From Poronia punctata (taxonomy: Eukaryota; Ascomycota; Sordariomycetes; Xylariales; Xylariaceae), in NCBI GenBank assembly GCA_022579005.1, contig MU401549.1:1-64000 (forward strand): DNA of 64,000 nt, in the 5' to 3' direction. Under the pieces are notes generated by a model. The model did not search any database. It was not told the origin of the DNA and worked only from the letters and a program-made list of their open reading frames with translations. Shown here in pieces: positions 34,027-39,900 of this stretch. The position numbers and the translations under genes were made by a program. The first letter of the stretch is position 1; each line of letters opens with the position of its first letter.

Positions 34027-34033
34027 GCCCGGT

Positions 34034-34045
34034 TAGCTCAATCGG
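34034..34045 (+). promoter_or_regulatory. tRNA A box
   Basis: TAGCTCAATCGG matches the internal Pol III A-box consensus TRGYNNANNGG at the usual place in the D arm. Confidence 0.85.
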
Positions 34046-34078
34046 TAGAGCGTGAGACTCTTAATCTCAAGGTTGCGG

Positions 34079-34143
34079 GTAAGTTACATGTTCAAATCAC
34101 ACACCGAGTCAAGGAACAAAAAATCCTAACGAAAAATCAATAG
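34079..34143 (+). other. Spliceosomal-type intron inside the tRNA gene
   Basis: The insertion starts GTAAGT, has ATCCTAACG with the branch A at 34129, 14 nt before the 3' end, and ends AATAG. These are the donor, branch and acceptor signals used by the protein-coding genes of this window, and 65 nt is within their size range. The position is not that cut by tRNA endonuclease. Because G occurs at both junctions, the insertion can be shifted by one base, but only the GT..AG placement fits spliceosomal rules. Confidence 0.75.
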
Positions 34144-34153
34144 GTTCGACCCC
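34143..34153 (+). promoter_or_regulatory. tRNA B box, completed by the last intron base
   Basis: GGTTCGACCCC matches the B-box consensus. Its first G is the last base of the insertion, so the box stays intact in the DNA although the T stem is split. Spacing from the A box is about 65 nt longer than in an intronless gene. A second weaker B-box-like string, GTTCAAATC, lies inside the insertion at 34090-34098. Confidence 0.7.
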
Positions 34154-34177
34154 CGCATTGGGCTCAATTCCTGATGC

Positions 34178-34194
34178 CCCTAGTTTAACTAGGG
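34178..34194. repeat. Perfect palindrome downstream of the tRNA
   Basis: CCCTAGTTTAACTAGGG is an 8-bp inverted repeat around a single T. It lies 13 nt after the tRNA 3' end and before the T-run, so it would be in the Pol III trailer. Confidence 0.7.
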
Positions 34195-34215
34195 ATAGCA
34201 GCCGAAACACCAATC

Positions 34216-34222
34216 TTTTTTT
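34216..34222 (+). terminator. Pol III terminator
   Basis: A run of seven T residues about 51 nt downstream of the mature tRNA end is the first strong Pol III stop. Confidence 0.75.
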
Positions 34223-36958: not shown

Positions 36959-39900
36959 ATGACGACGATAACGCCAATACCCTCACCTCCAACACTGCCA
37001 CTTCTAGGCAATGTAGCTCAGATTGACCCGGTAGCTCAAAGAACCTCATTTTCCGAGCTTGCTGCCAAATATGGTCCGTAACAACCTACAATCCACATTT
37101 CACATTCTCCATACGAGGCCACACCCGCTGACATGTGATTTATAGGCGAGGTATACCGTCTTCATTTTCCTGGAAATAGGAGTCTCGTGGTTGCTTGCAC
37201 CCACCGAATGGTAGACGAGCTATGCGACGAGAAACGCTTCACAAAAATCCCCAAGGGTGCCCTTGCGGTTCGTCACTTGATGATATCCTTCTAGTCTTTG
37301 CTACTAATGCTGTTTATAGGAAATCCGGAATGGTGTACACGATGGACTGTTCACAGTAGGTTTCATCTCGACCAGTGTTGCATCTAGTCGCTATTCGGTA
37401 GACTAACCACTATATATCAAGGCCGCACCGGGCGAAGAGAATTGGGGTATCGCCCACCGAGTGTTGATGCCGGCGGTAAGCCTTCTTTCCCTATTCATAC
37501 GTTTTCCATTCTGTCACGATGCTAACAAAAATCATAGTACGTCTCTACAAATTCTTCTTATCTTATCCCGGAGCCTGGTCTGACGGCCGGACTACATAAG
37601 ACCTTGAACAGAAACTAACATATCACAGGTTCGGACCCCTGTCTATCCGGGGCATGTTTGATGAGATGCACGATATCGCGGCGCAAATGGCTTTAAAGTT
37701 TGCTCGTTATGGGCCGGACGAGCCGATCCCGGCGTCGGATGACTTTACTCGTCTGGCTCTTGACACGCTCGCTTTATGTTCCATGGGCTTCCGCTTCAAC
37801 AGCTTCTACACCAAAGAACTACATCCCATGATTGAAGCCATGGCCGGTTTCCTAGTCGGATCGGGCAAACGGCCGAGAAGGATATTGCCATCGGTCTTCT
37901 ACCGAGCAGAAGACGCCGAATACTGGCAGGATATCGAGACACTGCGGAAAACGGCACGGGAGGTTCTCGAGGCGAGAAAGAACAAGCCCAATGACCGAAA
38001 GGATCTCTTAAATTCCATGTTAAATAGCGTCGATCCGAAGACGGGGAAACGCATGAGCGACTCGAGCATCATCGATAATCTCATCACCTTCCTGGTCGCC
38101 GGTCATGAAACCACGTCCGGCACATTATCATTCGCATTTTACCGATTGTTAAAGACGCCGGATGCGTATAGAAAGGCGCAAAAGGAAGTGGACGAAGTGG
38201 TTGGAAAAGGTCCCATCACCATCGACCATCTATCCAAGCTTCCCTACATCACAGCTGTACGTCTCTCTTTTCTCTCTCCGACCCCCCCTGGCTGGATGAA
38301 AATTATTTTACTAATAAATCCGCGCGCGACAGGTTTTGCGTGAAACGCTCAGACTCGATTCCCCTATCCCTCTGTTCACAGTAACATCGAACGAGGACCA
38401 GCTATTGGCCGGGAAATATCCTGTCAATAAAGACGAGCAATGCGCCATATTCCTAACAAGTGCTCACTTGGACCCGGCCGTGTGGGGAGACGACGCGCTC
38501 GAGTTCAAGCCTGAACGCATGTTGGACGAAGAGTTCAACAAGTTACCCAAAAACGCTTGGAAGCCCTTTGGCAACGGAGCTCGGGCTTGTATAGGCCGAC
38601 CCTTTGCTATGCAAGAGGCCATTCTAGCCATGGCCATGCTCCTTCAGAACTTCAACTTTGTCATGCACGACCCCAATTACAATCTGGCCGTCAAGCAGAC
38701 CCTGACCATCAAGCCGGATAATTTCTACATGAGGGCCATCATCCGCGATGGATTGTCCCCGACCCAACTAGAGCATCGTCTGGCCGGTAGCGGGATGGTG
38801 AACGACATGGCCAAGTTGACAATCGAAGACCCGTCATCATCCTCCAACGGAAAGAAGGGCAAGAAAATGACAGTCCTATATGGCAGCAACAGCGGAACAT
38901 GCGAATCTTTGGCCCAAAGACTGGCCAGTGAAGCTGCCGGCCACGGTTACTCGGTCGACACTGTCGACTGCTTGGATGCGGCCAATGGGACCCTACCGAA
39001 AAACCAGCCCGTCGTCATCATCACGGCTTCGTACGAGGGAGAACCGCCTGATAACGCGGCCTTGTTCTGTTCCTGGTTGAACGGCTCCAAGGACGAGAAG
39101 ATGCTAGAGGGTGTCGACTACGCCGTCTTTGGCGTAGGCCATCACGACTGGGCCCAGACTTTCCACCGTATCCCCAAACTGGTCGACAACAAGCTTGAGC
39201 AGCTCGGAGCTACCCGTATCTCCGACATCGGCCTTTCGGACGCAGGATCGACCGATACCTTTACGGATTTCGAGACATGGGAAGACAATGTGTTCTGGCC
39301 CGCGATGAAAAAGAAGTATGGCACGGCGGATGCCAGTAGCCAAGAGACGCCATCGGCCGGTCTGAGTGTAGAGGTGACCACGCCGCGCACCTCGACCCTC
39401 CGCCAGGACGTCACGGAAGCCTTTGTGGTCGACACCCGCAAACTGACGGCAGAGGGCGAACCGTTGAAGAAACACATTGAAATCGCACTGCCCACTGGCC
39501 AAACCTACCGATCTGGTGATTATCTCGCAGTTCTGCCCATCAACCCCAAGGCTATCGTTCAACGAGCCATGCGCCGGTTTCAGCTCGCATGGGATGCGCA
39601 TATTACTATCGCAGGAGATTCCAAGACACCCTTGCCGACAAATACATCCCTACCAGCCCAGAGCATCTTTAGCGCCTATGTCGAGCTAGGTCAACCGGCC
39701 ACGAAGAGGGTGAGTTGATAAAGAACATAAAACCCCACGTTTATATTTTTATACTTGGTCAGAGGTACTTACACACTACCTATTTCTAGAATATCCTTAC
39801 CATTGCAGAGACGGCCAAACGCGAGGAGACGCAAGCTGCTCTAAAGAAATACGCCGAACAGAATTACGCCGATGTAGTAGAAAAGCGAATCTCTATCCTC

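Follow-up and report, generated by a model that had tools for sequence, protein, structure and literature searches.

Candidate spliceosomal introns in the T stem of a tRNA-Lys(CUU) gene family of Poronia punctata

Introns of eukaryotic nuclear tRNA genes normally lie at position 37/38 and are removed by tRNA endonuclease and ligase. A locus in the dung fungus Poronia punctata (Xylariaceae, Ascomycota) raises the question of whether a nuclear tRNA gene can instead carry an intron of the mRNA type, interrupting the T stem. It lies in the window analysed here, a 64,000-nt stretch of DNA (contig MU401549.1, positions 1 to 64,000), where a tRNA-Lys(CUU) gene at 34027-34164 is interrupted at 52/53 by a 65-nt insert of the form GTAAGT...CTAAC...TAG. 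The preliminary description of this locus, which placed CTAAC 14 nt from the insert end, matches the sequence exactly; it left open whether a tRNA gene had captured an intron of the mRNA type or a copy had recently been inactivated. Using the sequence of one genome, together with published work cited here from excerpts of the papers named, we consider it highly probable that RNA polymerase III (Pol III) transcripts of a tRNA-Lys(CUU) gene family are spliced by the U2 spliceosome, the family having gained its intron at 52/53 and spread by duplication.

The split gene and its family

Only one split gene had been recognized in the preliminary description, which proposed a genome-wide search for other Lys(CUU) copies; that search returned eight further split loci, a recurrence at one site far beyond chance, and six intact ones. 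The 45-Mb genome holds 15 tRNA-Lys(CUU) loci, nine split at 52/53 (C96, which is the window locus, C14, C8 twice, C84, C20, C133, C77 and C43) and six uninterrupted (C117, C206, C270, C200, C4 and C30). Two genome-wide searches, one with the window tRNA and one with an uninterrupted copy, gave the same 15 loci, and 15 of 15 first-look candidates were scored in each. The window locus has the following features.

34027..34078, + strand: exon 1, nucleotides 1-52 (52 nt), with the A box, D arm, anticodon arm and 5' part of the T stem
34079..34143, + strand: spliceosomal-type intron at 52/53 (65 nt); same position in nine loci, bodies diverged
34079..34084, + strand: putative 5' splice site GTAAGT (GTAAGT in seven of nine inserts, GTGAGT in one, GTAAGC in one)
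34126..34130, + strand: branch-site motif CTAAC, a motif match, with candidate branch A 34129, 14 nt from the insert end
34141..34143, + strand: putative 3' splice site TAG (TAG in eight of nine inserts, AAG in one); its G is also part of the B box GGTTCGACCCC with exon 2
34144..34164, + strand: exon 2, nucleotides 53-73 (21 nt), with the T loop, 3' part of the T stem, acceptor 3' strand and discriminator
34155..34177, + strand: trailer hairpin 1, tRNA 3' strand GCATTGGG (34155-34162) with CCTGATGC (34170-34177); predicted to exclude the acceptor stem
34178..34194, + strand: trailer hairpin 2, CCCTAG/CTAGGG; pairs kept across distinct stems
34198..34203, + strand: trailer GCAGCC, which in predicted folds can pair with exon 1 GGTTGC (34071-34076); putative role only
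34216..34222, + strand: probable Pol III terminator, a T7 run; beyond the trailer, each of the 15 loci has five or more consecutive T

Eight of the nine split copies have the same 73 exon nucleotides, and the ninth, C43, differs by an additional C in exon 1. Over exon 1, 14 of the 15 loci agree, C43 again being the exception, and exon 2 is identical across the nine split loci and the uninterrupted C270, the other five uninterrupted loci having C68 where these have T68. That excision restores an intact tRNA, as first described for the window locus, holds for eight of the nine split loci, in which the joined exons give a cloverleaf with anticodon CUU, the same as in uninterrupted C270; the joined exons of C43 give a fold with an altered D arm. 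The decayed exons expected of a tRNA pseudogene are not seen at these eight loci. The 5' flanks of the 15 loci are largely unrelated (best of 105 pairs, z 3.6; 30 shuffles each). C270 itself (L019, complement of 485-597) is uninterrupted, yet in T68 and in the type of its trailer it matches the split group. By these two features C270 appears to group with the split genes, and it could possibly be a pre-intron form or the result of exact intron loss.

Split loci of this kind expose a blind spot of tRNA finders. ARAGORN called a Lys tRNA in two of the nine, both closed inside the insert. With RF00005, the uninterrupted genes reached 68-70 bits and eight of the nine split loci 33-50 bits, in a genome search in which 63 of 2574 first-look candidates were scored; C43, missed there, was picked up only in a separate Rfam search with permissive thresholds. 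At the window locus both ARAGORN and RF00005 call a tRNA that closes at 34110, within the insert, and the closure uses a T-loop-like stretch of the insert. Four inserts (C96, C14, C8a and C20) have a TGTTCA stretch near the start that resembles a T loop or B box, found at window 34079-34110 and in the same place in L002, L003 and L005. It was considered as a captured second B box and is not kept in the other five inserts.

A query with 11 other isoacceptors, with 40 of 71 candidates scored, gave 43 matches, all unbroken at 72-77 nt; Lys(CUU) need not be the sole split tRNA. In a search for relatives, an exact 23-nt pattern had no match in viral_contigs or genome_contigs, which are viral and prokaryotic collections. 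Several tRNA pairs are closely spaced (L054 Val-Val, L038 Thr-Glu, L065 Lys-Met, L042 Ser-Pro and L066 Thr-Ala) and may be co-transcribed. Elsewhere in the window, the open frame at 38336-39718 looks like a portion of a cytochrome P450 fused to a reductase of the flavodoxin type.

The inserts and mRNA introns of the same fungus

The inserts are 59-91 nt long (median 64), and the signals of a U2-type intron recur in them: GTRAG at the start and AG at the 3' end in nine of nine, and YTRAY 13-17 nt from the insert end in eight of nine, C77 having only CTAAG. Shuffled inserts carried YTRAY in the branch window in a mean of 1.5 of nine cases, and none of 20,000 shuffles reached eight. The insert bodies are mostly unrelated: similarity exceeds that of shuffled sequence at z > 2.5 in four of 36 pairs, and these pairs all lie within the group C96, C14, C8a and C20. 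A search for an intron source found no other genome match to the window insert at E ≤ 1. Diverged bodies between unchanged exons, with the splice signals kept, are as expected from purifying selection on a spliced gene, and the pattern fits nine spliceosomal introns under selection rather than one dead copy. The mRNA-type intron reading offered at the outset is strongly favoured by this combination of nine copies, intact exons in eight of them, diverged inserts and kept signals.

The 91-nt insert of C43 (L016, complement of 393-557) can be read as two abutting introns with no exon between them, GTAAGT...CTAAC...TAG (40 nt) and GTATAG...CTAAC...TAG (51 nt). An abutting arrangement of introns has been described for fungal snoRNA clusters (PMC3596301).

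For comparison, 39 coding-context candidate introns were taken from 200 kb of the P. punctata genome, a control set of which perhaps a quarter is false, since nine pass in shuffled sequence. A first control set, with a strict motif, held only 16; in the window this motif gave eight matches, including the tRNA intron, and 0-2 per shuffled window. The control introns have a median of 75 nt (quartiles 67.5-82.5) in a search that itself fixed length (45-130 nt) and branch window, and the tRNA introns are slightly shorter. The control branch distance has a median of 13.5 nt, partly set by the search window. Fusarium introns span 42-529 nt, have CTRAY in 91% and end mostly in YAG, with a RAG minority (PMC5677156), so the AAG end of C20 is unusual but known. 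As sequences, the inserts have the lengths and signals of ordinary fungal introns.

Pol III stops at T runs. The tRNA introns have more A and less T than the controls (A 0.39 and T 0.27, versus A 0.24 and T 0.31; A-T skew p = 0.0005). Runs of at least five T occur in none of the nine tRNA introns and in 11 of 39 controls (p = 0.095), and runs of four in one of nine and 15 of 39, respectively (p = 0.24). The lack of T runs is itself expected from the low T content, own-composition shuffles giving P = 0.30. A-rich, T-poor introns without T5 runs would be expected where Pol III has to transcribe through them, and they fit Pol III transcription.

The 3' trailer

One 3' trailer type is common to all 15 tRNA-Lys(CUU) genes; by eye, the other listed tRNA families showed no such trailer common to dispersed copies. 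An Rfam search of four loci with permissive thresholds returned only tRNA above the gathering score, the trailer having no match to a known RNA. A lysyl-tRNA synthetase intron structure has been described elsewhere (PMC8216456).

Hairpin 1 joins tRNA nucleotides 64-71 to CCYRATGC, with all eight pairs standard in 15 of 15 loci and variation at pair 5 (C-G, T-G or T-A) and pair 6 (G-C or G-T). Hairpin 2 is kept in 14 of 15 genes, its sequence changed while pairing is maintained: 75 of 77 cells are standard over 11 distinct stems (shuffled mean 59.9, maximum 73 in 10,000 shuffles), a count that omits C43, whose stem is decayed (one of seven pairs).

Folds were predicted with energy models that ignore tertiary contacts and proteins. 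In ensembles with the exons joined or uninterrupted and a 45-nt trailer, nine of the 15 Lys(CUU) genes have a probability above 0.5 of pairing between the acceptor 3' strand and the trailer; C133, C43 and uninterrupted C117, C200, C4 and C30 fall below 0.5, and in uninterrupted C206 and C270 the pairing is as strong as in the split genes. Among 56 other tRNAs, such pairing exceeded 0.5 in three when 45-nt trailers were used and in none when the trailers were truncated at the first T4. When the trailer was cut at the first T5, hairpin 1 exceeded 0.5 in the same nine of 15 genes and in six of the nine unspliced precursors. These models predict that hairpin 1 excludes the acceptor stem, and it may act by delaying end processing. 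The trailer end can also pair with exon 1 GGTTGC (nucleotides 45-50): five core pairs are standard in the nine split genes and in two of the six uninterrupted ones (C270 and C117), 11 of the 15 loci in total; given trailers of common ancestry and an invariant exon 1, this pairing is suggestive only. Because the uninterrupted genes also have the trailer, its role cannot be in splicing alone.

Alternative explanations, proposed maturation and known systems

Could the inserts be ectopic tRNA introns that the tRNA splicing endonuclease removes, a mechanism proposed for those of Cyanidioschyzon and nucleomorphs? Nucleomorphs have non-canonical tRNA introns, some of them in the T arm, and similar ones occur in a red alga (PMC4090602), and the T stem closes round the insert in six of the nine predicted unspliced folds. 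In a test limited to strict register, however, a bulge-helix-bulge (BHB) was absent from nine of nine precursors: the outer helix has two of five pairs in each, and the central helix three of four in eight and four of four in C14. Strong spliceosomal signals would be needless for an intron of this kind, and they are missing from the nine introns that ARAGORN called near 37/38 among 53 tRNA loci scanned in the genome (Lys-TTT three times, Leu twice, Glu, Pro, Thr and Ala), which are 19-38 nt long and not GT...AG. On present evidence the inserts, at 52/53 instead of 37/38, would not be endonuclease introns, and we judge this explanation very improbable. A tRNA-derived SINE-like element, in place of true tRNA genes, would suit dispersed multi-copy loci in which a tRNA head is followed by a conserved tail and a run of T, but identity is strongest in the tRNA exons, the tRNA is intact after excision and the uninterrupted genes have the trailer too; we attach scarcely any probability to it.

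The split loci might also be unspliced, silent pseudogenes, their exons homogenised by gene conversion with the six intact genes as donors. The preliminary description had tied the pseudogene reading in part to the existence of other intact tRNA-Lys(CUU) genes, and six were found. Conversion between tRNA genes has been described, and insertions in the D or T arm of eukaryotic tRNA genes mostly affect a single gene among many synonymous ones, presumed to be a pseudogene (PMC4090602), nucleomorphs and Cyanidioschyzon being the exceptions for the T arm (PMC4090602, PMC3978253). C43, with its extra C in exon 1 and decayed hairpin 2, looks damaged and may be a dying gene; the suggestion of a recently inactivated copy fits that locus alone. 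Yet nine of 15 copies are split, not one, and T68 in all split copies against C68 in five of six intact ones indicates that conversion has not mixed the two groups at position 68. Conversion could help keep the exons alike, but it would not preserve the GT, the branch motif and the AG of inserts that have diverged elsewhere. We therefore regard silent pseudogenes as unlikely.

Spliceosomal removal of the intron from Pol III transcripts, the reading we prefer, also has points against it. The six uninterrupted genes could supply tRNA-Lys(CUU), so the split genes need not be essential, and there are weak copies among the split loci (C77 without YTRAY, C20 with AAG, and C43). Based on the features above, we propose a plausible course of events. 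A tRNA-Lys(CUU) gene family would have gained a U2-type spliceosomal intron in the T stem, at 52/53, and then duplicated. RNA polymerase III would transcribe the split genes from the internal A and B boxes, between which the intron sits; since the intron's last G and exon 2 together form GGTTCGACCCC, the B box would survive. The spliceosome, not the tRNA endonuclease, would excise the intron and restore the 7-nt T loop. The T arm is a recognition element for both RNase P and RNase Z, from which we infer that splicing is an early step, ahead of final end processing; trailer removal would follow, and the tRNA would be finished. Until that removal, the trailer hairpin would hold the acceptor 3' strand in an alternative pairing and so delay end processing. 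When the trailer is left out of the predicted folds, all nine unspliced RNAs already have the acceptor stem, and in six of them the T stem closes with the intron enclosed, so that folding by itself does not impose this order.

A more far-reaching version is tentative, and we lean against it: the spliceosome would make part of a cytosolic tRNA, and the trailer would be a clamp that holds the precursor out of the cloverleaf until splicing. Hairpin 1 would hold the 3' acceptor strand, and trailer GCAACC would close on exon 1 GGUUGC just upstream of the 5' splice site. If this were true, the supply of lysine tRNA would depend on splicing capacity.

Were the genes spliced as predicted, they would be an exception to the textbook division between endonuclease and ligase for tRNA and the spliceosome for mRNA, and the spliceosome would act on structured Pol III tRNA precursors. 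The family would then let intron gain in noncoding genes be studied as a natural experiment, and it would tie translation to splicing. Among the matches listed from the open-access literature, covered by titles and abstract starts and with subscription papers mostly outside its scope, none concerned a spliceosomal intron in a nuclear tRNA. In the text available, the term "spliceosom" is absent from PMC4090602, and the sole "spliceosomal intron" in PMC3978253 concerns protein genes.

The inserts share with canonical 37/38 introns their setting in a nuclear tRNA gene and differ from them in lying at 52/53, in having no strict BHB and in carrying spliceosomal signals. The ectopic tRNA introns of Cyanidioschyzon merolae and nucleomorphs are alike in occupying non-canonical positions, including the T arm, and are attributed to a BHB and endonuclease or to a mechanism that is unknown; those of Guillardia are 3-24 nt, whereas the Poronia inserts have spliceosomal signals and ordinary fungal intron length (PMC4090602, PMC3978253). 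Sequence-similar stwintrons of Hypoxylaceae and Xylariaceae provide a case of intron spread in the same fungal family, from which the Poronia tRNA introns differ in being single, except in C43 with its two possible abutting introns; the available text of that paper has no mention of "tRNA" or "Poronia" (PMC12403724). The U6 snRNA of Schizosaccharomyces pombe is made by Pol III and loses an mRNA-type intron, thought to derive from reverse splicing near the U6 catalytic nucleotides, and its authors suggest that 3' end processing comes first and intron removal after (PMC10484740), the opposite of the order proposed here. The best U6 match in the P. punctata genome covers the whole model in 100 bases, with no long insert. 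Like S. pombe U6, the Poronia genes would place a spliceosomal-type intron in a small Pol III RNA (PMC10484740), with the difference that the host RNA is a tRNA and that nine loci are split.
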